Below the pieces are notes generated by a model. The model ran no database searches, had not been told where the DNA came from, and was given only the letters and a program-made list of their open reading frames with translations. From a virus, in the IMG/VR virus record IMGVR_UViG_3300036892_000047, positions 1 to 23,372 of that record: DNA of 23,372 bases; one strand, written 5' to 3'. Below are positions 6,007 to 23,251 of the stretch, one piece after another (positions within the stretch are counted from its first letter, which is position 1; each line of letters starts with the position of its first letter). The translations under genes were made by a program, and so were the position numbers.

Positions 6007-6466
6007 CTTTCCAGTGTACGTGGACCCGCTCATCGACTGCCTGGAACACGGCGATGTCCACGAACTGCCAGCTTTGCTCGGGCAGCGGCCGAACCCTCGC
6101 CTGCGGCGTGATCTTGCAGAACCCGATCCCGCCGTAGTCGGCCCACTCGTCGCCTGTCTCGATCCACACTCCACCACATGGGGGCTTTTTGCCTGTTCGG
6201 TGCGCCCAGTGCGGGCCGCCGGAGGGGATCCCCAGCCAGTAGGCCCAGGTCCCGAAGGCGCAGTCGCAGTCGAGCAAGGTCTGGATCAGGTCATCGCTGA
6301 CCTCCATGTCGTGCTCGAGGATGCACAGCGTCTCGTCGCTGGCCCAGTGCGCCTCGACGCCACGCCAGTAGTCCTCGGGCTCCACGCACTCGATGCCGAC
6401 GACCTCGAAGCGCTCCGACCGGAAGTGCGGCTGGCCGACTAGATGGCTGGCGAGGATGACGGTCAC
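5963..6466 (-). CDS. Glycosyltransferase-like protein
   Basis: 167 residues from a GTG at 6466 that overlaps the HNH gene stop as GTGA. The first strand TVILASHLVGQ leads into ETLCILEHDMEVSDDL (46-61), where EHD resembles the acidic metal motif of GT-A enzymes. The middle (CAFGTWAYWLGIPSGGP; YGGIGFCKITP) and the aromatic C-terminus are similar in layout to the product at 4098-4625. It is the first glycosyltransferase-like gene of the cluster. Assignment is by motif and context. Confidence 0.65.
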   Translation of the reverse strand: MTVILASHLVGQPHFRSERFEVVGIECVEPEDYWRGVEAHWASDETLCILEHDMEVSDDLIQTLLDCDCAFGTWAYWLGIPSGGPHWAHRTGKKPPCGGVWIETGDEWADYGGIGFCKITPQARVRPLPEQSWQFVDIAVFQAVDERVHVHWKDGPDGPEGVEHLHR

Positions 6467-6822
6467 TCGCGACGACGCCGAACAGCGTAGCGCGCAGCGG
6501 CTCGGGCTTTCCGGCAGGTGTGACACTCGCGGCCGCCATCGCTCGCCCTGATGTACGTGTTCTCCGGCGTGAACTCATGGCCGTGCGGGCAGTGGGTCTT
6601 AGCCCGCTGATAGTCCGGCGCTCCACCGCCGCCATCGAACGCATGATGACAACGCTGGCAAAGCTCGAACCAGTCGTGACGCCAGCGCGAGTACCGGTGT
6701 CCCACGCTGGCGTACTCGGTCCGCCGATCAGTGGCTGCGCAGTACTCGCATCGGCCGACCTTCGGGAACTGCCTCTGAAGGCGCTGATGTATGACGTAGT
6801 AGCGATTCGAATGCTGTCCCAT
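6463..6822 (-). CDS. HNH-type nuclease with C-terminal zinc module
   Basis: 119 residues from ATG 6822, five nt after the upstream stop. Residues 25-63 hold paired Cys (CEYC, then CQRCHHAF) and His residues around SVGHRYSRWRHDW, consistent with a small HNH/zinc nuclease. A separate C-terminal block, CPHGHEFTPENTYI then CHTCRKARAAAR, is nearly the same as the C-terminus of the HNH protein at 22817-23251, although the two N-terminal halves differ. Free-standing HNH genes in phages often act as homing endonucleases; that role is inferred here. The stop overlaps the next start, so any insertion has kept translational coupling. Confidence 0.75.
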   Translation of the reverse strand: MGQHSNRYYVIHQRLQRQFPKVGRCEYCAATDRRTEYASVGHRYSRWRHDWFELCQRCHHAFDGGGGAPDYQRAKTHCPHGHEFTPENTYIRASDGGRECHTCRKARAAARYAVRRRRE

Positions 6823-6827
6823 CGAGT

Positions 6828-7352
6828 CTACCCTCGCGTCTCCCTGACCACGGACTCGACCTCCACCAGATCGCCGCCACGGGTAACGAAGCGGCGGCGG
6901 GTGCGGGGCGGTCGCCCATGCTCGCCAGGTGTGCGATCCCCGTACGCGATGACGTTCTCGGGTGGCTCCGCTGGCATCGGGTTCGGTCGCGTGTCTGCGC
7001 CCTCTGCCTCGCATGCGACGCGTCGGCTTACGGCCGCCGCGGCGGCTTCGGCCTCTCGCTGCGTCGGCTTGAACGTTCCCGGCTGCTCCGCGATGGCCCG
7101 CTTCGCCTCGACCACTCGCTCGTAGAGTCTGCGCCCCTCCCGCGCGCTGCCCTCTCCCTCGTTGATCCCTATGCCGATCGGCGTCGGGATCTGCTCGGGT
7201 GGTAGGGGCCGCGGCGCACAGGCGCACGGCTTGTACAGGTCGCACCGTTTGCAGAACGTCGCGGCGCTCGTGCCGATCGGGTAGTGCGGGCATCGGGTGT
7301 TCGCCTCGGCGTCGTCGTAGACGCGGCAGCAGCTCTCGCAGCGGACGATCAT
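6828..7352 (-). CDS. Unknown protein with N-terminal Cys-rich region
   Basis: 174 residues from ATG 7352; a TTG two codons upstream is an alternative start. The first 50 residues carry many cysteines (RCESCCRVY, RCPHYP, FCKRCDLYKPCACAP), which suggest a zinc-ribbon. The rest is a helical, Ala/Glu-rich stretch (KPTQREAEAAAAAVSRRV) and a basic end. It lies just after the second capsid gene, where head-tail connection or decoration genes often lie, but nothing in the sequence shows such a role. Confidence 0.65.
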   Translation of the reverse strand: MIVRCESCCRVYDDAEANTRCPHYPIGTSAATFCKRCDLYKPCACAPRPLPPEQIPTPIGIGINEGEGSAREGRRLYERVVEAKRAIAEQPGTFKPTQREAEAAAAAVSRRVACEAEGADTRPNPMPAEPPENVIAYGDRTPGEHGRPPRTRRRFVTRGGDLVEVESVVRETRG

Positions 7353-7376: not shown

Positions 7377-8687
7377 CTAGACCTTGGCCGTGGTGTATGC
7401 CGCCCCGGTGAGCACCGACGTGCCCGCGGATTGGCGCGTAGCCGTGGCCACGTAGCAGCGCAGGTTGAGGATCACGCGCAGCGTGTCAGCTTTCGTTTCC
7501 ACGAACGTGGTCAACACGGGATCGTCCTCGAACAGGATGATCGCTGTCGCGGGTGCCGACACGAGAATCTGAATGCCGGTCGTGGTCCCGACGAGCGGTA
7601 TTGAATCGTCGGCCATCCACACGAGGCCACCGGGCATCATGGTGCCCAGAAAGCGCGACCACGCCGGCGCGTCGCCGGAGCCGAAGTCGTCCGCCCCGGT
7701 CGAGACCGGGAACCCCGGCACGAAGTTCGGCGTCATGAACGGCCGTTTCTGTTCGTCGAACTGCCGGGTGTAGTAGCCGTAGAAGTCGGTTGAAGAGAAG
7801 ATATGCGTCGCCCGCAGCCGCGTCCCGGCGATATCGGCGACTTCCCTTCGTGCCTTCGCGACATCTTCCAGGAACTTTTCGTTCGAGTAGGCACCTGAGT
7901 TGCCGGCGATCGCCGTGCCTGTTTTGAGCGCCTGGTTCAGTGCGTACTTGTCGATCGCTTCGTCGAGTTGCTCGTGTAGCTGACTGCCGAGGATCGCGTC
8001 GACGCTGCCCCCGCCGGCTCCGCCACGATCATGTAGCTGCATGCTCGTCGTGATCTGCCCGGTTACGGTGCCGACCGTCGGCGAGGCTTCGAGTGCTGTC
8101 GTCGGCTCGGTTTCCGCCACCGCGCCGCCCTCGGTCTGTTCGCCCACCGCATCCGTGCCGCTGACGTAGGGCACGTACAGTTTCATGCCGAACGCCGGGA
8201 GCGGCAGAGACCGGCATGCGTCGGCGAACACTCGCTGCGCCCCGCGAAACGGCGTCCACTCGGCGAGCAGCACTGCCGGCGAGACGAACGACGCCGCTTC
8301 GCCGGCCGCCGCCGCGCTGATGCCGCCGTCTGTGCCGAATCCACGCAGCTCCGCCAGCACGTTGGCGGAGCGCTGTTCGTGCTCAGACACATCCCCCGTG
8401 CGGTCGCGGGCGCGGATGACCCGTTCCGCGCGCAGGCCCTCGCGGGAGCGCTGGTCAATCTCGTAGCCCAGCTCGCGGCCATAGCGCGCGAGCCGCTGGA
8501 CGGCCGCCTGGTGGCCGGGCATGTCGGCGTTCCGGCGCCGGACACAGTCGCCGTAGAACGAGTGCTGCGAGTGCAAGCCGTAGGTTCTCGGCTCGTGGGT
8601 GACTCGGGTCTGCCGGTCGCGCGCGAGGCGCTCGCCGACGATCCGGTCCACCTCTTTCTGCTGCTCGGGCGTGAAGATGTCCGACAT
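7377..8687 (-). CDS. Major capsid protein, HK97 fold (second copy, intact)
   Basis: 436 residues from ATG 8687, preceded by GGAGGA. Only the last 436 codons of a longer open frame are real. The N-terminus (TPEQQKEVDRIVGERLARDR) is short, without the long coiled delta domain of the other capsid gene. From residue about 110 it follows the HK97 capsid pattern: GTDGG and FVSPAVLLAEW, then RVFADACRSLPLP and YVPYVSGTDA, an E-loop-like central section, a middle domain (EQLDEAIDKYALNQALK) and a C-terminal strand (TFVETKADTLRVILNLRCYV). It is clearly homologous to the intron-split capsid gene at 9427-11592. Either may build the main shell; one could form a minor component. Confidence 0.88.
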   Translation of the reverse strand: MSDIFTPEQQKEVDRIVGERLARDRQTRVTHEPRTYGLHSQHSFYGDCVRRRNADMPGHQAAVQRLARYGRELGYEIDQRSREGLRAERVIRARDRTGDVSEHEQRSANVLAELRGFGTDGGISAAAAGEAASFVSPAVLLAEWTPFRGAQRVFADACRSLPLPAFGMKLYVPYVSGTDAVGEQTEGGAVAETEPTTALEASPTVGTVTGQITTSMQLHDRGGAGGGSVDAILGSQLHEQLDEAIDKYALNQALKTGTAIAGNSGAYSNEKFLEDVAKARREVADIAGTRLRATHIFSSTDFYGYYTRQFDEQKRPFMTPNFVPGFPVSTGADDFGSGDAPAWSRFLGTMMPGGLVWMADDSIPLVGTTTGIQILVSAPATAIILFEDDPVLTTFVETKADTLRVILNLRCYVATATRQSAGTSVLTGAAYTTAKV

Positions 8688-8730
8688 CGGTCCTCCAATG
8701 GAAATAGGTCCGACGTCTTGACGCGCGTCG

Positions 8731-9319
8731 TCAGCGTGAAAGTCTGAGGTACTTCGCTGCGGCGTCGAGGATCTCCGGGCTGTCCTTGAATTGGCCGAGC
8801 CCCCGGTCGCAGTGCTCGCAGAGCAGGCCGCGCACGCCGCCGCCGTTGTGGCAGTGGTCGATGTGTAGGCCGTGCTGTCCAATCCCAGCGCCGCGCCTGC
8901 CGCGGATGATCGGGTCGCCGCAGATCGCGCACTTGTGATCCTGCGCCGCGAGCATGGCGTTGACCGCCAGGCCGGTGATCCCGTACTCGCGCCGGAGTCG
9001 CGCCGTTTCGATGGCGCAGTCCTTCGAGCAGTTCTCTGCGTTGCGGCGCCGGAGGCGTGAAGTCCTCGCCGCAGTTGAGACAGCGACGCGCGATCGGCGC
9101 GTCCAGCGTACCGTGGCGATGTTTGAAGTAGTGCGATTTGCAGAGCTGGAGCTTCTTGCGATACACCGGCTCGCCGCACACGCGGCAGCCCGCCGGAAGC
9201 ATCGCCTTCGTCGGGTGCAGCACCTCGCCGCGTTCCTGCTGGGCGTAGTGTGCCCTGCAGAGCGCCCGGCAGTAGGCGCCCGTGGGGCATCCGGGGACCC
9301 TGCAAGCTACCTTGTCCAT
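8731..9319 (-). pseudogene. Endonuclease VII-like HNH nuclease, frameshifted
   Basis: Translation would start at ATG 9319 behind AGGAGG. The first frame gives paired-Cys modules (CRVPGCPTGAYC, CRVCGEPV, CKSHYFKH, RCLNCGEDFTPP). At about 9044-9050 the sensible sequence moves to another frame, continuing ENCSKDCAIETARLRREYGI and then the endonuclease VII core: HKCAICGDPI, the catalytic-type HIDHCH, then VRGLLCEHCDRGLGQF. Removing a single base near there joins the halves into one protein of about 195 residues. So the gene is broken by one extra base, or the base is a sequencing error; a programmed shift is less likely. It lies between the two capsid genes and could once have served mobility of the nearby introns. 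Confidence 0.75.
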
Positions 9320-9347
9320 GTTGGACCTCCTGTGTAGGTCTGACCAC

Positions 9348-9376
9348 GGCCCGGAGCGTTTTGCGCGCTCCGGGCC
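9348..9376 (-). terminator. Strong hairpin after the intron-split capsid gene
   Basis: A perfect 11-bp inverted repeat (GGCCCGGAGCG / CGCTCCGGGCC) with a 7-nt loop lies about 50 nt past the stop of the first capsid gene and about 30 nt before the start of the endonuclease VII-like gene. No T-run follows on the minus strand, so it may be a GC-rich factor-independent terminator as in many actinobacteria, or an RNA-stabilising or processing hairpin that sets the amount of capsid message. Confidence 0.6.
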
Positions 9377-9426
9377 TCTATGGTTCCGCCTACAGCAGGA
9401 AGCTATTGCTTCGCTGCCTGGTCACC

Positions 9427-11592
9427 TTATTCGTAGGTAACCGCTTTCATTCCTTCACCGTTGATCGTCTGCACGCCTTCGGCGTAGCGCTTGATCGCGG
9501 TGGCATACGAATACTGCTGCAATATGCGCCTTGTTACCCGATCACTCGGGGCTAGGTCATTTCTGCCTAGCTCTGCATCTTTGCCATCGATGCAGACCGG
9601 ACTGTAACTTCGACTCCAGTCCCGCGCGGCTAATACCGGCCGGTCGGTCCTATCGGAGTGCGCTCCACGTTCAGTCTCTACGGAACCCGCGGTAACGGTT
9701 TCCTCGGTATTCCCCTTGGATGGCGGGGTTCACCGATACGGTGGAGTGATTCTCGCCTAGATCGCTCTAGACGACGGCCAGTTCTCCAACCTGCAACGTA
9801 TTCGCTTTCGTCTGTGGGATCGTCCGAGGAGTTATCGCTCCCTCGAACACCCACACCTCGTCCAAGCACCCGACGACCGCCTGATCGTTGGTCGTCGTGC
9901 CCTGGTCGGGGATGTTCTCATCGGTGAACACCGGGAGGCCAGCGAATTTGTAACCCGTGGCTCCCTCGATGCCCTCGTCACCCGATGCTGAACCAGCACC
10001 GGCCGCGTTGAACGGCCCGGCGTAGGTCGGCACGACCAGCGACCGGCCTGTCGTGTCGGCGAACGCCGACATGAACTCCCAGCGGGTCGGACGCACGAAC
10101 AGGTGCGTCGGGTTCAGGACGGTGCCCGCTGTCGTGCGGATTTCCGCCTTCGCCTTGGCGACCTGGCCATAGAACCCACCGGCTGCTTCTTTCTTGGTGA
10201 GTTCAAATTTGCCGGCGTTGCCTTTGTAGTTCAGCACCCCGGCCGACGCGAGTGCGATTTCGAGACAGTACACGTCGAAGTTCAACGCGTAGTTCCTCAT
10301 CAACTGATCGAAGATCAGTTTGTCGAACGCGAAGCTAGGGCCAGCGCGATCAAGGAGCTGCTGTGAAACGACGACCTGCCCAGAGAGCGTTTTCAACGAC
10401 CCCGAGAGGTAGCCTGCGGTCGGTGCCAGATCGGCGATCGTGGTGGAGCCCGAAGACTCCGTGGTCGCTGTCACTTCGGCGCCGCCAGTGACGTGTGGGA
10501 TGTAGCAAGCTGTTACACAAGCCCGAAGGCTTGGGCTGAGTCATTTCTGCTCAGCTCTGCATCTTTGCCATCGATGCAGACCGGACTGTAACTTCGACTC
10601 CAGTCCCGCGCGGCTAATACCGGCCGGTCGGTCCTATCGGAGTGCGCTCCACGTTCAGTCTCTACGGAACCCGCGGTAACGGTTTCCTCGGTATTCCCCT
10701 TTGTTGGCGGGGTTCACCGATACGGTGGAGTGATAACTCATAGGTCGCCCTATGAGACCGCCTAGTTAGTGACGTACATCCCATACGGTGGGAGCTGTTC
10801 TTTCTGGCATGCGTCAGCGAAACTTCTCCCGAATTCACGATACGGTGCGTACTTTCCAACCTCGAACACGGGGGTCACGAACGCCGAGCCTTCACCCGGT
10901 GCCGTGGCCGACGCGCCTCCGTCGGTGCCGATCGCGGTTGCACGCAGCTCGGGCTTGTCCTCCAGCGCCATACGGCCACGCGCCTCGAACTCCTTCATCC
11001 GTTCTGCTGTGGCCGCCTGGTCCTCGCCGCGGATCGTTTCGCGGATCTGCTTCTCCGCGAACCGCCCGAACGCCGAGCGCTCAGCGTACTCCTTCTCGAC
11101 CTGGTGAGACCACTGCGTCAGACGTTTCGAGGCTCCATGGTCGAAGTCCCCGATGAATAGCGATTTGCAGCGGAGTGCCATGTCCATGTAGAACGAGTGG
11201 GGTGAGCGCTCACCGTCGGGCGCCACACCGTAGACCGGACGGTCGCCCTGGGTGACCGTCACGTCGGCGATCGAGTCGACCGACTGAATGCGCTCGCGCG
11301 CCTCTGCGATCTTCTCTTTGTCCTTCGCCCGCTGCTCCTCTTCCTTGATCCGCCTGCGGATCGTCTTCACTTCCTTGCGGATCGGCTTGAGATCCTTGTC
11401 CGCACTGTCGATCTCGGTGCGCAGCTCCTCACAGCGAGCTGTCTCCTTCTCGTCGGGCTCGCGGCTCTCGCCCTCGATGGCCTCGACAATCTTGCGGAAC
11501 TCCGCTTCCGACCCGTCGCGGCGCGTGACCAACTCGTCACGGCGTTGCTGGGCGGCCTCGGCGTTCTCCACGAGCTCTGCTAGAGCGCTCAT
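9427..11592 (-). CDS. Major capsid protein, HK97 fold, split by two group I introns
   Basis: Three exons: 11592 to about 10778, about 10505 to 9771, and about 9526 (or 9529) to 9427. Joined they give one open frame of about 549-551 residues. ATG 11592 follows AGGA. Exon 1 holds a long charged coiled-coil delta domain (about residues 1-110, e.g. KEVKTIRRRIKEEEQRAKDK) and the start of the capsid fold (GTDGGASATAPGEGSAFVTP; SFADACQKEQLPPYG). Exon 2 continues with YIPHVTGGAEV and most of the shell fold, ending TKANTLQVGELAVV. Exon 3 gives the final QYSYATAIKRYAEGVQTING and TAA. The intact paralogue at 7377-8687 aligns straight across both gaps (LPAFGM-KL-YVPYVSG; TKADTLRVILNLRCYV), which shows the two gaps are not part of the protein. 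Without splicing, exon 1 would stop two to four codons after the junction. Exact splice points are uncertain by a few bases. Confidence 0.85.
9527..9770 (-). ncRNA. Group I intron 2 in the capsid gene
   Basis: On the minus strand I see a full group I core. P3 is CUCCAC (9746-9741) with GUGGAG (9668-9663); P7 is GACUG (9676-9672) with CAGUC (9604-9600), inside the hallmark contexts AGACTGAACG and AAGTTACAGTCC; P4, P5 and P6 helices are also present. P1 is likely a hairpin closed by a GCGA loop: exon end CGU and intron CUAGA face UCUAGGCG, with a U-G wobble after the last exon U at 9771. P9 is GCUAGG/CCUAGC and a further hairpin is CCCGA/UCGGG. The 3' end is after the G at 9527 (or 9530). About 240 nt, no ORF inside. 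Confidence 0.85.
10506..10777 (-). ncRNA. Group I intron 1 in the capsid gene
   Basis: This has nearly the same core as intron 2. P3 is CUCCAC (10730-10725) with GUGGAG (10652-10647); P7 is GACUG (10660-10656) with CAGUC (10588-10584). P9 is GCUGAG/CUCAGC, a compensated version of the intron 2 helix, followed by CAAGCC-UUCG-GGCUUG. A possible P1 pairs the exon end UAUGGGAU with GUCUCAUA in the intron, ending in a U-G wobble, which places the 5' site after 10778 and, by frame, the 3' site after G 10506. The alternative pair 10776/10510 preserves a GM + two residues + YIPHV alignment. A stop codon lies 2-4 codons inside the intron. No ORF. Confidence 0.83.
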
Positions 11593-11858
11593 GTGCTGGT
11601 CCTTTCGTGTGGGTTTGACTGGCCCACGGTTTCCCTGACCCACGCGCGCCCCGGTACTCGGTTCCCGGACGGGCGGCGCGGCGGTACTGCGTGTTCGACG
11701 CTTGGGGCCGCCGCGTCGTCAGGCGGTAAGGGGAGGGGGGGCGAAAGCCCGGAAAGTGCGAGATGGGCTGGGCTGCGTGTTTGGGTTCGGTGGTAGCTTC
11801 GGGATGCAGGTCCAATTCGCCTTGCGATACCCACGGATCACTCGACTAGGAGGTTTCT
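11593..11858. other. Intergenic region between divergent capsid gene and plus-strand cassette
   Basis: 266 nt separating the start of the first capsid gene (minus strand) from the first cassette gene (plus strand). It must hold the divergent transcription starts if each has its own promoter, but I cannot point to a convincing -35/-10 pair on either strand. The plus-strand end contains a degenerate copy of the array unit (see 11805-11848). Short plus- and minus-strand open frames here have low-complexity, Arg/Ser/Pro-rich translations and are not supported. Confidence 0.5.
11805..11848 (+). repeat. Single degenerate copy of the cassette repeat unit
   Basis: GATACCCA at 11826-11833 is followed by exactly 9 nt and then CGACT, the same spacing as in the five units at 12369-12601. 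The upstream block is only partly kept (AGGTCCA at 11809-11815 in place of AGGCCA), again 10 nt before GATACCCA. It ends at the ribosome site AGGAGG of the first cassette gene. A unit therefore stands just upstream of each of the two cassette genes. Confidence 0.65.
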
Positions 11859-12371
11859 ATGGCTGTTGCCGTAGCGCCCGGTTCCGACGCAGCTATCGAG
11901 ACGCTCAATGCCGTAATCCAGCGCATCAGCGCCGAGCGCCCGGAGTACTCAGACCGAGGGATCGCCCTGCTGGTCCTGGAGGCCCTCGAAGAGTCGCCGA
12001 GTGAGGTGCTGCTGTCGCTGCTCCCGGCGGTCACGCAATACACCAACACGATCCGACGGAGGCCCTCGCTTGCGCTTGAGCACAAGATGAGCGAGTCCTT
12101 CCGGCCGAGTGCGGCACTCGCCCAGCGCAAGGCCAAAGCCACAGAATGGCGATCAGTCTTGAGCGACTACGCGAACGAGTACGTCGCGATCCCCGGCTGC
12201 ACAGACCGCGTTCGGGCGGGCATCGTCACGCTCGATGAATGGAAAGCGCGCGTCGCGGCGCTGCAAAGAGGGATCGACCGCGACCAAGGGACCGTGGCGT
12301 TCCTTGAGGCGATGCTCGGCGAGCTTGTGAAAGCGAAAGCTAGGACGGTGGACCAGTACCTGGCGCGCTGA
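11859..12371 (+). CDS. Unknown protein, first gene of the plus-strand cassette
   Basis: 170 residues from ATG 11859 with a perfect AGGAGG ribosome site. Predicted all-helical: an N-terminal helical part (AIETLNAVIQRISAERPEY; GIALLVLEALEESPSE; VLLSLLPAVTQYTNTIRRR) and a C-terminal charged part (RVRAGIVTLDEWKARVAAL) ending in a coiled-coil-like stretch. No family recognised. Its stop codon TGA is the first three bases of the TGAGGCCA block that opens the repeat array, so the gene and array are physically joined. The gene is on the strand opposite to the virion genes, which suggests the cassette was acquired as a unit. Confidence 0.75.
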   Translation: MAVAVAPGSDAAIETLNAVIQRISAERPEYSDRGIALLVLEALEESPSEVLLSLLPAVTQYTNTIRRRPSLALEHKMSESFRPSAALAQRKAKATEWRSVLSDYANEYVAIPGCTDRVRAGIVTLDEWKARVAALQRGIDRDQGTVAFLEAMLGELVKAKARTVDQYLAR

Positions 12372-12601
12372 GGCCAGAGCGCACGCGAGATACCCAACAC
12401 CTGACCGCCCGACTCCTTGAGGCCATTCCTTTCGCGATACCCACCCCCACACCGCCCAAACCCCTTGAGGCCACTAGAGCACCGATACCCACCTATCTCG
12501 CGCCCAACCCTTGAGGCCATCACGCTTTCGATACCCAAAGATGGCTCGCCCAACCCCCCCTTGAGGCCAAACCCTCCGCGATACCCAGAGGCCACTCGCC
12601 C
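12369..12601 (+). repeat. Five-unit interrupted repeat array with fixed-length variable segments
   Basis: Each unit reads TGAGGCCA (usually CCTTGAGGCCA), a variable segment, GATACCCA, a second variable segment, then CGCCC with a short A/C run. GATACCCA lies at 12389, 12436, 12484, 12530 and 12580 (periods 47, 48, 46, 50). The second variable segment is exactly 9 nt in all five units; the first is exactly 10 nt in four and 12 nt in the first unit. Only the A/C run after CGCCC otherwise changes length. The first 10-mers (ttcctttcgc, ctagagcacc, tcacgctttc, aaccctccgc) and the 9-mers differ from one another. The period is not a multiple of three throughout, so it is not a coding repeat. It lies between the two cassette genes. 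Confidence 0.85.
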
Positions 12602-12620
12602 AGCAGAAAGGACCCCACCA

Positions 12621-13442
12621 ATGCCCGACTACCTTGACCTACGCACGGCCGCCGAGATGTTCGAGGACGTACAGAAGACCCGTATCTCTCAGGAGAACCG
12701 CGTGCGCTCGGCAACGGTCGGCGCCGTGGACTACAACCCCGTAATCGCGAACCTACGGCAGACCGAGGATCTACTGAGCAAGCGCCTGGTGGCGCTCTAC
12801 AAGCAGGTCGCGCCCAGTGGCGTCGTCGAATGGCAGCAGAGCACGCTCGGCGTCGGGCCGCACCTGCTCGCCCGGCTGCTCGGGCATCTCGGGCACCCAC
12901 GCATGGCCGAGCCGAAGTTCTGGGCGGAAAGCATCGACGGTGAGCACGGCGACGACGAGAACCCGAAGCGCGCCGTGCAGGACGGCGAGCCGTTCGAGCG
13001 GATGGTCTCTCAGCTATGGCAGTACTGCGGCCATGGCGAAGCGCTGCGGCGTACCAAGGGGATGAGCCAACAGGACGCCTTTCGTCTCGGCAACCCGCGC
13101 TGCAAGATGCTGGTCCACGTCATCAGCGGGGCCGTCGTCAAGGCCCAGGTCCGCAAAGATGGCGAGGACCGCATCGGGCTCGCGCCGCTCGGCGAGTTCT
13201 ACCTCTCGGAGAAGGTCCGCTACCGCGAGCGCGCGCACGCGGGTCCGTGCTCCGGCGGCTACGTCGCTGCCGGTCCCGCCAAGGTCGTGTTCGCGAAGTG
13301 CAAGATCGGTGATCGCTACGCCGACGCTGGCGACCCCTACAGCCCTGGGCACGTCAACTCGATCGCGCTCCGGCATCTCGGGAAGCGCGTCCTCAAGGAG
13401 CTATGGGAGGCTGCTGCCGTTGCTCGCCATGAATGCACATAG
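12621..13442 (+). CDS. IS110 transposase C-terminal-domain-like protein without RuvC domain
   Basis: 273 residues from ATG 12621, preceded by AAAGGA; the open frame continuing upstream through the array is not likely to be used. After an N-terminal helical segment (to about residue 70) comes a helix-hairpin-helix-like motif TLGVGPHLLARLLGHLG (75-91), then QLWQYCGHG (131-139), GNPRCKMLVHVISGAVVK (157-174), a YxxxKxxYxxR motif (194-204) and GHVNSIALRHLGKRVLKELW (243-262). This order matches the Transposase_20 part of IS110/IS116/IS902 transposases (PGVG, then YCG, then GN..L). The N-terminal DEDD RuvC-like nuclease of IS110 is absent, so it is not a complete transposase. A DNA- or RNA-binding role with the adjacent array is my inference. 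Confidence 0.6.
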   Translation: MPDYLDLRTAAEMFEDVQKTRISQENRVRSATVGAVDYNPVIANLRQTEDLLSKRLVALYKQVAPSGVVEWQQSTLGVGPHLLARLLGHLGHPRMAEPKFWAESIDGEHGDDENPKRAVQDGEPFERMVSQLWQYCGHGEALRRTKGMSQQDAFRLGNPRCKMLVHVISGAVVKAQVRKDGEDRIGLAPLGEFYLSEKVRYRERAHAGPCSGGYVAAGPAKVVFAKCKIGDRYADAGDPYSPGHVNSIALRHLGKRVLKELWEAAAVARHECT

Positions 13443-13866
13443 AGCGCGTTTCCCAATCGCGTCGGTGACGTAGGTAGAACCTGAGCACGTTCAATGGGCC
13501 GGGTGCGCCCCAGCCTTCAGACAGCGCCCTGTATCCCCGGCCTCCGCGTGATAGTCCACCATCTCCGGCCGTTGCTCTTTTCTACGATGCCGCGCGGGGC
13601 GCGTCAGAACGTGCGGGCGATTCGCCTCGATCCGCATTGGGACCGAACTAAAGCGCCGCCGCGCTTGGCGAAACCGGACACAACCCCCAGGGGAGTTATT
13701 GCCGGTTTCCCGTCAGGGGGTTATTGCCGGTTTCTTGGGGCCTGCACGAACGGCACGCTGTAACCCGACACGATGAGTAGATGGTCCATCGTCCTCCTGT
13801 GGGTTCGTGAGGCGTGCCGTGCTCCCTGCTCAGCGCCCTTCGCCGCGTTCGATCTCCCGAGCGAGA
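13443..13866. other. Gene-poor region between cassette and protease gene
   Basis: 424 nt between the end of the IS110-like gene and the end of the prohead protease gene, which converge here. I see no convincing gene. It contains the three-copy repeat at 13670-13734. Termination signals for both convergent genes should lie here, and the repeat hairpins may supply one. A plus-strand open frame of 89 codons (13494-13763) runs through the repeats and has no recognisable protein features. Confidence 0.5.
13670..13734. repeat. Inverted plus tandem direct repeat (three copies)
   Basis: Two near-identical direct copies, CAGGGGAGTTATTGCCGGTTTC-like at 13688-13709 and 13714-13734 (the second lacks one A), follow an inverted copy at 13670-13688 (GAAACCGG with CAACCCCC). 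The inverted copy can pair with either direct copy (GAAACCGG/CCGGTTTC and CAACCCC/GGGG-GTT), giving two mutually exclusive hairpins. It lies at the downstream border of the plus-strand cassette and could be an end of the mobile element, a recombination site or a two-way terminator. Confidence 0.75.
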
Positions 13867-15757: not shown

Positions 15758-16245
15758 GACTGGTTCGCTTTCTTCGCCGCCTGCTTGGCGTCCTGCGCGG
15801 CCTGCTTCTTAGTGCCGGCGGCGGCTTCCTTCTCTTCGGTCGTCGGCTTGGTGATGAGGTACAGGGTCGGGCAGATCTTGGCGTACAGGTAGCAGCGGTC
15901 GATGCGGTTATCGAACGCGCACCATGCGCCGAGTGCCTTCAAGTGCTCCGCGCGGGCGACTCCGTTGGAGCCCGAGTCGTCGTACTGCACGAGGGCGTCG
16001 AACGGGAAGCCGTAGCCTTCCAAGCGGCCTTCGAGTTCCTTTGCCGGCAGTTCGCTGCCGGTCAGCACGATGATCGTGTCGCCCTGGGTCTTGAGGCCCG
16101 TGGCGATCCGGGCGAGCTGCTGCGGCGCGTTCGTGATCGTCTCGTCGAAGTCGAACGCCACCGTAAAAGGGGGGCCGTCTACGTCGTTGCCGGTCTTCTT
16201 ACGATCCTCGACCCGATGAAGGAAGCGATGTGCTGGCAGTGCCAC
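15754..16245 (-). CDS. HAD-superfamily phosphatase-like protein
   Basis: 163 residues if started at the GTG at 16245, inside the end of the HNH gene; the first 25 residues may not be real. The motif [15 protein letters not shown] carries the HAD DxDxT nucleophile motif, [11 protein letters not shown] is motif II with its Thr, and CAFDNRID may be motif III/IV, although a second conserved Asp is less clear. The C-terminus is a Lys/Ala-rich tail ([20 protein letters not shown]). HAD proteins hydrolyse small phosphates, sometimes nucleotides; phages often carry them, with unclear role. Confidence 0.75.
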
Positions 16246-16867
16246 TCAGTGCCTCCCGTGCTATCTCGGCGGCCGTAGCATCGCCGCGGTCGGCGATGGC
16301 TTCTAGCGCTTGTCGGTATCGGTCCATCCGGCCTGCGTAGCGCTGACGGTTGTGCGCCTGCTCGGAAGGCGTCGCCCACCTGCAGTTGCCGGGCTCGTAG
16401 TCGCCGTCGTTGTCGATGCGGTCGAGGTTGCGTCCGGCGGGCCGTTCGCCAAGGTCGGCAAGGAAGTTCTCGAAGCCTTGGGGTCCGCGCCACCGCTCGC
16501 AGACCGTGATCCCACGGCCGCCGTAGCGGTGATAGCTCGAGTCGTTCGGGTTGCGACATCGGCTCTGCATCGAACTCCATGAGCGAAAGGTGCGACTCCC
16601 TGTGTTGCGGCTGTGCCCGTGCGTCCGATGGGCTTCGCCAACTTCGACTATCTGTTCGATGCGCCGGCAGCCGCAGCTCGTGGTGTTGCCTGAGCGCAGG
16701 TTCGCGCTCGCGATGCCTGCGACCTCGTTGCCGCAGTCGCAACGGCAGTGGTAGGTCCGCTGCCCGAAACGAGTGCGACCGTCCTCGCGGAGGACTACCA
16801 GGCGCGTGTAGCGGTCACCGGGAAAGACGACAGAAGGTCTGCCTCGCCGTTGTATACCTTCCGCCAT
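16199..16867 (-). CDS. HNH homing-type endonuclease
   Basis: 222 residues from ATG 16867 behind TTGGAG. An N-terminal zinc-ribbon-like part ([29 protein letters not shown]) is followed by an HNH core as in many phage HNH proteins: [35 protein letters not shown] and [20 protein letters not shown]. The histidine/asparagine residues of the DRIDNDG-NCRWA segment form the nuclease site. It stands between the portal and HAD genes, a position typical of free-standing homing endonucleases that sit between conserved virion genes. Confidence 0.9.
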
Positions 16868-16922
16868 GTCTGCACGCTCCAATCGTGTAGGCCACGACCC
16901 CGGCGAGCGACATCGCGCGGGG

Positions 16923-19678: not shown

Positions 19679-20006
19679 ACCCGCGCGGCATGTCCTCAAG
19701 CGCGATGAACTGGGTGCCGATCGGCTCGGGCGGCTCCGGCTCGGGCTCGCGCGCCAGATACTCCCTTTCGGCCTCGCTGGCGCGCCGACACTTCGCCAGC
19801 ACACGGCGGAACGCGCGGGAGGTTTCCCAGGAGCGTTTCGCTGCCGGGCTGCCGCCGTTGGCCTTCAGCGCCTCGGCCTCAGACGAGCCGCCCGCTAGGT
19901 CCGAGAGGAACGCGAGTGCGACACCGTAGGAGTCCATGTCGTACTCGAAGTCCGCCGCCCGCAGGCCGTGGGGGTTGGGGAGGTCAAAGCCGTTTGAAAG
20001 GTCCAT
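19668..20006 (-). CDS. Unknown protein downstream of terminase-linked HNH gene
   Basis: 112 residues from ATG 20006, overlapping the HNH stop by one base (TGATG). The sequence has an N-terminal MDLSNGFDLPNPHGLRAADF, a helical middle (SSEAEALKANGGSPAAKRSW; REYLAREPEPEPPEP) and an acidic Pro-rich stretch. Proteins of similar size occur next to phage terminase genes but I cannot assign a family. Confidence 0.65.
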   Translation of the reverse strand: MDLSNGFDLPNPHGLRAADFEYDMDSYGVALAFLSDLAGGSSEAEALKANGGSPAAKRSWETSRAFRRVLAKCRRASEAEREYLAREPEPEPPEPIGTQFIALEDMPRGFRR

Positions 20007-20293
20007 CACCAGTCCCTCGATACATGAGCCGCCCGTGATCGTCCCGCGCCGCGGCGCCCGTTGCAGCCGTAGTGGACGGGGCGCAGGTTGGCGGGGTCGA
20101 GCAGCAACTGCCGCCGAGAGTGCGGGTCAAGGCTGCGCATGTGCTTGACCGGGAAGATGTGGTCGACCGACGGACTTGAGGGTGATCGCGCGGGGGCATC
20201 GAAGTCCAGCGCGCCGCCGCACAGCCAACACGCCTGCGCATCGCGCAGCACCCGTGCTCGCACCCGGCGCCACTGGTGGTCGTAGACGCTCAC
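20006..20293 (-). CDS. HNH endonuclease next to large terminase
   Basis: 95 residues from a GTG at 20293 that overlaps the terminase stop (GTGA). It carries CWLCGGALDFDAP (zinc pair), SVDHIFPVKHM (the DH of the HNH motif) and the NLRPVHYGCNGRRG end with the last catalytic His and Asn. This is the standard small phage HNH protein encoded beside terminase; in some phages it works with terminase in DNA packaging, as described for HK97-like phages. A homing role is less likely for this one. Confidence 0.9.
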   Translation of the reverse strand: MSVYDHQWRRVRARVLRDAQACWLCGGALDFDAPARSPSSPSVDHIFPVKHMRSLDPHSRRQLLLDPANLRPVHYGCNGRRGAGRSRAAHVSRDW

Positions 20294-21678
20294 AACTCGC
20301 CCCACGCCCCGTGCCAGAACGAGGCAGCGTTCGTCAGCGCCACCAGCGGTGTGATGTCAGCCCCGCTGTTGCGCCGACTCCATGCCCATCCATCGCCGAG
20401 TTTCCGTTGCCCCGCTCCGTCGAGCGCGATCGTCAGCTCCCGCTCGCCGCGGTGACGCAGCCGGGACTCCTGCACGAGTTTCAGCCAGAACTCGCAGGCA
20501 ACCGGGACATCCCCAGCGTCGAGTTCGGAGACCTTGAAGTCGCTCACGCGCTCAAGCTCGGGCATCAGCGCCGCGCACGCCTTCTTGTCCGCCATCAGCC
20601 GCAACTCGCCGAGCCTGGCGCGCTGGCGTTCGAGCGCTGTGATCACCCAATCGCTGCCAGGGCCATGCTCGAGCACCGCCGAGCGTAGAAGGTCACCGTC
20701 CTCGCCGACGGCCACGATCGCCGCCGACTGATTCTGCGGTGCCACGTCCACGCCGAGGACCACCCATTCGGGTCGCTTGGCCTTCGGCTCGGCGAGGGTC
20801 TGCCAGTGCTCCAGGCTCACCATCGGCTCGCCCATCTGCGCGACCCAACGGTTCAGGAAGGCGCGGGCGAACTCGCCGCGCGGCATCGATCGCTGCGCGG
20901 CGGCAACCGTATCCTCATCGACCGTGTGGCCGAGCGCTGGCATGCACGAGCGCCACGTCTGCGGGTCCGCCGGATCCGCATCGTCATCGGCCGACCACTC
21001 GAAATAACACAGGCTCTCGGTCAGCCCCGCCTCGACCGCTAGGCGCCCGGCCTGCACCCGCTCCCACAGATATGGGCTCGCGTCCGGCGTGCCGGCCGTC
21101 GAGACGACCCACAACTGCGGATCGGGACGGGTCATCATCGCCGGGCGTAGCGCCTGCTCAGTCCGCGCGTCGGTGTAGGCGAACGCCTCGTCCATCACGC
21201 CGAGGTCCACGGTCATCCCGTGGCCGGCCTTCGCGGTCGATGCCACGAGCTGTATGACCGAGCCGTTCGCGGTGCGCATCGACTCACGGCCCGGCGCCAA
21301 ATATGACGCCACGAGTGGCCCGATCGAGCTGGCCTGCACGGTCGGCAGCCAGTCTTCGACCAGCTTCTTGCGAGCGTCGAGCCCGGTCTGCGCCGTGTAG
21401 ATCGCATTCTGCCGCGTCGCCACCAGCGCCCGCGTGAGCAGCAGCACCAGCACCAGGTAGCTCTTCCCCTGCTGGCGCGGGACCGTCAGCACCACGTCGC
21501 GGTAGATGAGCCGTCCGTCTGGGTCGACCTCGAGCGCAGTGTCCACAACCTGGCGCTGCCAGGGCATCAGCCGCTGCCCAAGCACCTTGGCGACTCGCGC
21601 CGCCGCCCGTCCGAGCGACTGGCGTCCCGTCCTCTCGGTCGCGTAACGCGGCGCGCACTCAGTCGTCGCCGGCGGCAA
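20290..21678 (-). CDS. Terminase large subunit
   Basis: 462 residues from a TTG at 21678, 20 nt inside the end of the small-subunit gene; a later start would lose the conserved MPWQRQVVDTALE segment. ATPase motifs: Walker A-like VPRQQGKS (66-73), Walker B VDLGVMDEA (157-165) and the coupling motif VVSTAGTPD (191-199). The nuclease half begins at VVLGVDVAPQNQSAAIV with Asp311 as first metal ligand. Together with the small subunit it cuts and pumps DNA into the prohead through the portal. Length is normal. Confidence 0.95.
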   Translation of the reverse strand: MPPATTECAPRYATERTGRQSLGRAAARVAKVLGQRLMPWQRQVVDTALEVDPDGRLIYRDVVLTVPRQQGKSYLVLVLLLTRALVATRQNAIYTAQTGLDARKKLVEDWLPTVQASSIGPLVASYLAPGRESMRTANGSVIQLVASTAKAGHGMTVDLGVMDEAFAYTDARTEQALRPAMMTRPDPQLWVVSTAGTPDASPYLWERVQAGRLAVEAGLTESLCYFEWSADDDADPADPQTWRSCMPALGHTVDEDTVAAAQRSMPRGEFARAFLNRWVAQMGEPMVSLEHWQTLAEPKAKRPEWVVLGVDVAPQNQSAAIVAVGEDGDLLRSAVLEHGPGSDWVITALERQRARLGELRLMADKKACAALMPELERVSDFKVSELDAGDVPVACEFWLKLVQESRLRHRGERELTIALDGAGQRKLGDGWAWSRRNSGADITPLVALTNAASFWHGAWGEL

Positions 21679-22816: not shown

Positions 22817-23251
22817 TCAACGGACTCGCTCATCCTCGTTGTAGCGCCGTACGCGTCGCTCGCGCTGTTGATCGCGACCGCAAGTGCGGCAAAAGCGTTT
22901 GCCCTTGTACATGCGCGTATTCTCCGGCGTAAACTCGTGACCGCGCTTGCAGTGGGTCTGCGGCACGTAGTCGTCCCTTTCGGTGTAGTGCCGTCCACGG
23001 TCGCACATTTCGGCGATGTTATCCGCCTGCGTGCCTAGCGTTAGGTGATCCAACCTCACGCAGCGCGGGTTATCGCAGCGATGGAGCACAATCGCGTCCT
23101 TGGCAATCCGGCCGTATGCCGCAGTCCAAGCGAGCCGATGTGCGAGCCAGTAGACACCGCCAACGCATCGAGTCACGTACCCAGCTCCGTTGGGCTTGCC
23201 CGTCGCCTCAAAGCACGGTGTAGTTGGCGTGTTGCTACGGTCTGCTTGCAT
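22817..23251 (-). CDS. HNH homing endonuclease
   Basis: 144 residues from ATG 23251 with a GGAGG ribosome site at 8 nt spacing. The HNH core (GYVTRCVGGVYWLAHRLAW, then IVLHRCDNPRCVRLDHLTLG, NIAEMCDRG) is the HNH_3 type seen in free-standing phage homing enzymes. A C-terminal zinc module (CKRGHEFTPENTRMYKG, FCRTCGRDQQR) is shared with the nuclease at 6463-6822. The gene is bounded on each side by the same 15-bp sequence, consistent with insertion as a discrete unit after a gene ending in FDE. Confidence 0.88.
   Translation of the reverse strand: MQADRSNTPTTPCFEATGKPNGAGYVTRCVGGVYWLAHRLAWTAAYGRIAKDAIVLHRCDNPRCVRLDHLTLGTQADNIAEMCDRGRHYTERDDYVPQTHCKRGHEFTPENTRMYKGKRFCRTCGRDQQRERRVRRYNEDERVR

Follow-up and report, generated by a model that had tools for sequence, protein, structure and literature searches.

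A two-gene cassette on the plus strand of a tailed-phage contig (IMG/VR record IMGVR_UViG_3300036892_000047, whose 23,372 nucleotides (nt) are referred to as the window) very probably constitutes a TIGR-TasA system, in which an array of guide RNAs (tigRNAs) and a solo-Nop protein, TasA, would carry out RNA-guided DNA binding or blocking without cutting. The kind of system is already known (Faure et al. 2025, PMC12045711). What appears most novel here is an obligate partner gene, guide units in frame within coding sequences, and native hosts which can be cultured. The features of the cassette are as follows.

11812 to 11844, plus strand: leader tigRNA-like unit, with CCA, spacer A of 10 nt ATTCGCCTTG (11815-11824), loop CGATACCCA (11825-11833), spacer B CGGATCACT (11834-11842) and box D CG
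11859 to 12371, plus strand: partner gene (gene 1), 170 amino acids, phrog_4604-like family
12369 to 12410, plus strand: unit 1, with a 5'-truncated edge TGAGGCCA overlapping the gene 1 stop codon, spacer A of 11 nt, AGATACCCA, spacer B ACACCTGAC, CGCCC
12417 to 12457, plus strand: unit 2, with TTGAGGCCA, spacer A TTCCTTTCG, CGATACCCA, spacer B CCCCCACAC, CGCCC; exact match to the frame
12465 to 12505, plus strand: unit 3, with TTGAGGCCA, spacer A CTAGAGCAC, CGATACCCA, spacer B CCTATCTCG, CGCCC; exact match to the frame
12511 to 12551, plus strand: unit 4, with TTGAGGCCA, spacer A TCACGCTTT, CGATACCCA, spacer B AAGATGGCT, CGCCC; exact match to the frame
12561 to 12601, plus strand: unit 5, with TTGAGGCCA, spacer A AACCCTCCG, CGATACCCA, spacer B GAGGCCACT, CGCCC and then a 3'-truncated edge; exact match to the frame
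12621 to 13442, plus strand: tasA, 273 amino acids, solo Nop-domain protein, phrog_4285 (labeled transposase)

The array is real and far above chance. The window has six copies of GATACCCA, always on the plus strand (11826, 12389, 12436, 12484, 12530 and 12580), against 0.24 copies expected; in 100 shuffles the count never rose to six. Followed by 9 nt and CGCCC it forms five tandem copies, and the full frame TTGAGGCCA-N10-GATACCCA-N9-CGCCC is present in four mismatch-free copies with an expectation of 0.00. Tandem Repeats Finder alone did not detect the array because its units are merely 72-86% alike. An earlier note on this DNA had described a segment of 9 nt following GATACCCA in all five units, a segment preceding it of 10 nt in four units and 12 nt in the first, an array start inside the stop codon of gene 1, and a sixth unit ahead of this gene. 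All of these were recovered: the stop codon is the TGA of TGAGGCCA (12369-12371), and the sixth unit reads CCA-10 nt-CGATACCCA-9 nt-CG, immediately 5' of AGGAGG and the gene 1 ATG.

Since the base preceding GATACCCA is C in five of its six copies, we assigned this base to the repeat as part of box D, and spacers A and B are therefore both 9 nt in units 2-5; they are 11 and 9 nt in unit 1, and 10 and 9 nt in the leader unit. The loop repeat is then CGATACCCA, invariant in units 2-5 and the leader unit, and the edge repeat is CGCCC...TTGAGGCCA. Both have the form CG...CCA, with box D (CG) at the start and box C (CCA) at the end, while the loop of unit 1 starts with AG. In TIGR-Tas arrays as described in the main text of PMC12045711, two repeats (edge and loop, 8-12 nt) alternate with two spacers, each 9 nt (at most 12) long, box C is CCA, and box D may diverge from UG and matches between edge and loop. 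The 9-nt loop repeat falls inside this range; the edge repeat is 19-23 nt long, with conserved ends and a variable, C/A-rich middle.

Judged by profile comparison, the 273-residue protein is a TasA in the solo-Nop arrangement, lacking an N-terminal RuvC or HNH domain. It matched phrog_4285 with E 7e-29, and Pfam gave neither a confident match nor a nuclease family. A profile of 39 family members including the window protein matched structures of TasR (PDB 9mty, E 7.9e-31) and TasH (21kl and others, E 1.2e-20), compared with E 0.28 for the IS110 transposase IS621. We read 9mty as the TasR structure from its title, length and match; the entry is named "Transposase IS116/IS110/IS902 C-terminal domain-containing protein". 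The alignment starts with profile position 12 at TasR residue 117; the nuclease part at the N terminus of TasR is therefore missing. The window TasA shares 40-43% identity with the closest members of its family, loci L010-L012, and a single-sequence structure model of it (predicted local distance difference test, pLDDT, 41) had no usable fold.

A search with the single protein found no close TasA relatives in viral and bacterial contigs, and a profile of five relatives was needed to recover loci: 74 in IMG/VR and 11 in bacterial genomes or metagenome-assembled genomes, mostly of Actinobacteria. Relatives in GenBank phages belong to 74 mycobacteriophages, one Rhodococcus phage, one Arthrobacter phage and several Gordonia phages, and the mycobacteriophage homologs bear the labels transposase, DNA-binding or hypothetical. 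Of the 78 related loci examined, 73 have one or more stem-loop TIGR units, with the same boxes and 9-nt spacers held within hairpins of variable palindromic stems. A scan of the relatives returned 382 units in sense orientation, 43 in antisense and 29 in shuffled sequence. Box D is CG in 338 of the sense units and spacer B is 9 nt in 361, and stems of at least 8 bp were counted in 323 sense units versus one antisense unit. Across the whole genomes of these phages (4.7 million strand-bases), 205 of 206 units lie at tasA loci, and the array of mycobacteriophage CactusRose has significant RNA structure (z -5.15). In most loci examined, these arrays would by sequence be the stem-loop TIGR type described in PMC12045711. 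L010-L012 have stem-loop arrays as well; the window array is of the dual-repeat type, and the scan found no stem-loop units (palindromes replacing edge repeats) in it. A tree places the window near L010-L012, with support too weak to order the change between the two array types.

The third tigRNA unit of CactusRose (L006:3806-3866) has GGGG at its end, with a run of Ts after it, and this hairpin may double as a transcription terminator. A Cas4-type exonuclease gene has its start overlapped by tasA in CactusRose (L006:4708-5511) and in other cluster A mycobacteriophages.

A homolog of the partner gene lies directly upstream of tasA in all 79 viral loci and in 11 of 11 loci on bacterial contigs. 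Because the original partner profile had been iterated, it was rechecked with single-pass and window-excluded versions. A single-pass profile of four relatives, excluding the window, matched 66 loci, all at the position upstream of tasA and none elsewhere, and recovered the window gene with E 3.2e-4. A 38-member profile built without the window matched all 79 loci and the window gene (E 3.7e-9), with no matches among reversed decoys. With a mycobacteriophage partner as query, 76 GenBank phage records were found (75 Mycobacterium and one Gordonia), a distribution close to that of tasA. The predicted fold of the partner (pLDDT 91) would be mainly helical with a small hairpin; no PDB match had E < 3.7, BFVD gave relatives alone, and there was no match to the Pfam ParB families. 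The main text of PMC12045711 describes TasA as being without clear protein associations save an occasional ParB-like gene. The universal partner gene would be an addition to that main text, and the supplementary tables of the same paper may list some of these loci.

Spacers are exchanged between close relatives while their scaffolds are kept. In 12 cluster A mycobacteriophages the partner is 96% and tasA 98% identical, with third codon positions at 93%, yet in the three best-sampled units the spacers are 28-54% identical and the stems 95-100%. Each of these units has seven or eight distinct spacer pairs among 9-12 phages; variation in three less-sampled units is smaller. Spacers of units 4 and 5 also differ between the near-identical contigs L012 and L013. 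Turnover of the segments between close relatives, which the earlier note had asked for, is thus present in relatives of the window phage; for the window phage itself no close relative was found. Guides differing by one to three letters instead of being replaced outright, as if tracking target variation, were seen in L027, L037 and L038 (second unit) and in L032 and L034 (first unit).

Some guide units lie inside genes. In 21 loci, 32 units are in frame within the tasA open reading frame, all in a single loop flanked by the LWAYCG and KG..NW motifs. This TasA loop has a mean length of 47 residues with units and 13 without, and in the tasA frame the loop repeat encodes D-T-Q/H. Gene 46 of LonelyBoi, as annotated, has units in an N-terminal extension too, and L010 has one unit within the partner gene. 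Guide units in frame appear to be a further feature beyond the main text of PMC12045711, again one for which its supplementary tables may list some loci.

Taken as a TIGR-TasA system, the locus could work in the following way. The array between the genes (five units, and one in the gene 1 leader) would be transcribed with the operon and cut to short tigRNAs, each with two 9-nt guides between box C (CCA) and box D (CG) and bound by a TasA dimer. At a given DNA site each of the two guides would pair with a different strand, and the top strand of the site would consist of A and then the reverse complement of B. Short tigRNA processing, a dimeric Nop complex, two-strand pairing and a 180-degree DNA bend have been established by others for TasR and partly for TasA (PMC12045711). 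Since TasA has no nuclease, we propose that the complex, on binding DNA, bends it and stops transcription or replication there, or else brings the partner protein to the site; partner and TasA may be in contact. A likely use would be binding of foreign DNA or other mobile elements, blocking them without a cut, with the partner possibly being the delivered factor. Only tentatively do we suggest that these loci form a distinct, obligate two-gene TIGR subfamily of actinobacterial phages, in which TasA and a universal partner of new fold use guides rapidly swapped between near-identical phages and partly lying in the effector frame, as a nuclease-free weapon or shield in phage competition.

Possible targets were searched for with a geometry derived from the 8-nt 3' overhangs of cleavage given in PMC12045711, so that on the target top strand spacer A comes first and the reverse complement of spacer B next, separated by a gap of 0-2. 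In 2.4 Mb of TIGR-phage DNA, 346 spacer pairs gave 10 one-mismatch and 218 two-mismatch matches, the shuffled pairs giving 10 and 240. Matches were no more numerous in the opposite geometry, and an earlier scan of 12 mycobacteriophage genomes agreed in showing no target excess. Self matches of the 346 pairs were not enriched (three, each with two mismatches and none better). Three N-padded targets had no match in 50,697 phage records, a weak test in that exact 18-mers are near the E-value limit. Two spacer pairs had 2 and 0 exact matches in IMG/VR, which is chance level, and one pair had no exact match in 148 Mycobacterium genomes.

Several of these results count against a TIGR-TasA system in the window: a natural target was not found, with self and cross matches equal to the shuffled control; the edges of 19-23 nt exceed the 8-12 nt of published dual-repeat arrays; box D is CG instead of UG; and unit 1 is irregular. 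The earlier note had offered a plainer alternative, an operator array with a spacing of about one helical turn. On this reading GATACCCA and TTGAGGCCA would be protein-binding DNA sites and the intervening segments mere spacers. Spacing that is regular and near the helical repeat, sites preceding two start codons, and an array RNA with no excess structure of its own (z -0.44) would all fit such operators. However, at the same place in relatives there are hairpins on the sense strand, with stems that compensate and segments of exactly 9 nt, and with significant RNA structure in the case of CactusRose, the sites are restricted to tasA loci, and close relatives differ in the inter-box segments alone. 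Neutral filler would not outpace third codon positions so strongly, which disfavors operators; they also fail to explain the sense-only hairpins and the exact 9/9 spacing, and we consider them very improbable.

The earlier note had also pointed to a guide- or recombination-like system. The guide-like part stands, given the constant boxes, the two exchangeable 9-nt segments, the Nop-domain protein and the spacer exchange, while the part concerning IS110 and recombination does not. An IS110-family element or remnant with a bridge RNA and a role in recombination could account for the "transposase" annotation of homologs and for weak matches of 8 of 39 relatives to Pfam Transposase_20, but the far better match to TasR and TasH than to IS621, the absence of any Rfam match in the window and the fixed places of the genes in cluster A mycobacteriophages make it extremely improbable. 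A bridge RNA is a single unit with two loops and does not form arrays (PMC12045711), and with neither an N-terminal DEDD domain nor a single bridge RNA found, membership in IS110 is refuted. A TIGR-TasA system directed at the phage's own genome or the host, for gene control, integration aid or plasmid-like maintenance and not against rival elements, is unlikely but of more weight. TasA has no nuclease, and integration aid or regulation is among the options of the TIGR-Tas authors (PMC12045711). On the other side stand the lack of self enrichment and of an exact match for the single pair compared with Mycobacterium genomes, and a fast guide swap between near-identical phages suits moving targets better than fixed self sites.

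The plus-strand cassette (11859-13442) splits a minus-strand head module: the gene for the head maturation protease lies on one side and the capsid gene on the other. On the minus strand at 7377-11643 there are two adjacent capsid-like genes, the upstream one being split into 10762-11643 and 9767-10474, both of which match major head protein families. HNH-type or zinc-finger-like open reading frames were noted by eye among the structural genes at 6463-7293, 16199-16882, 20006-20305 and 22817-23251, also on the minus strand. Two near-identical copies of GGGGTTATTGCCGGTTTC and a facing GAAACCGG at 13655-13745 resemble what we take to be the terminus of an insertion element now lost, for instance one of the IS21/IS481 kind.

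PMC12045711 lists the function of nuclease-free TasA, the guide targets and the way in which arrays change among its open questions. Our findings place TasA systems in 74 sequenced mycobacteriophages which grow on M. smegmatis, a harmless laboratory host, and near-identical phages among them carry differing arrays. It is therefore feasible to delete or exchange the guides, the partner and the effector in native hosts, which opens the purpose of nuclease-free TIGR-TasA systems to laboratory testing.

Among known systems, the window locus shares with dual-repeat TIGR-TasA (e.g. FpTIGR of Flavonifractor plautii, PMC12045711) a solo Nop protein, a phage setting, tandem edge-A-loop-B units, 9-nt spacers, repeats ending in CCA, a box D common to edge and loop, and truncated edges at the array ends. 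It differs in its CG box D, its edges of 19-23 nt with a variable middle, the obligate upstream partner and the position of the array between two genes. CactusRose, LonelyBoi and most IMG/VR loci resemble the stem-loop TIGR with TasA of a Peromyscus gut contig in the same paper, having variable palindromes for edges and 9-nt spacers between boxes C and D; by comparison, the window array is without palindromes, relatives put units in frame in tasA, and the partner is absent from the main text of that paper. TasParB-TasA operons (PMC12045711, fig. S14) likewise have a second gene in the tasA operon and arrays upstream of and between the genes, whereas the window partner matches no Pfam ParB family and no solved fold. 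With the bridge-RNA transposases IS110/IS621 the window system has in common a Nop-type RNA-binding C-terminal domain and a pair of guide segments that are read on opposite strands of DNA, but it has no DEDD domain and no transposon ends, and its units form a tandem array.
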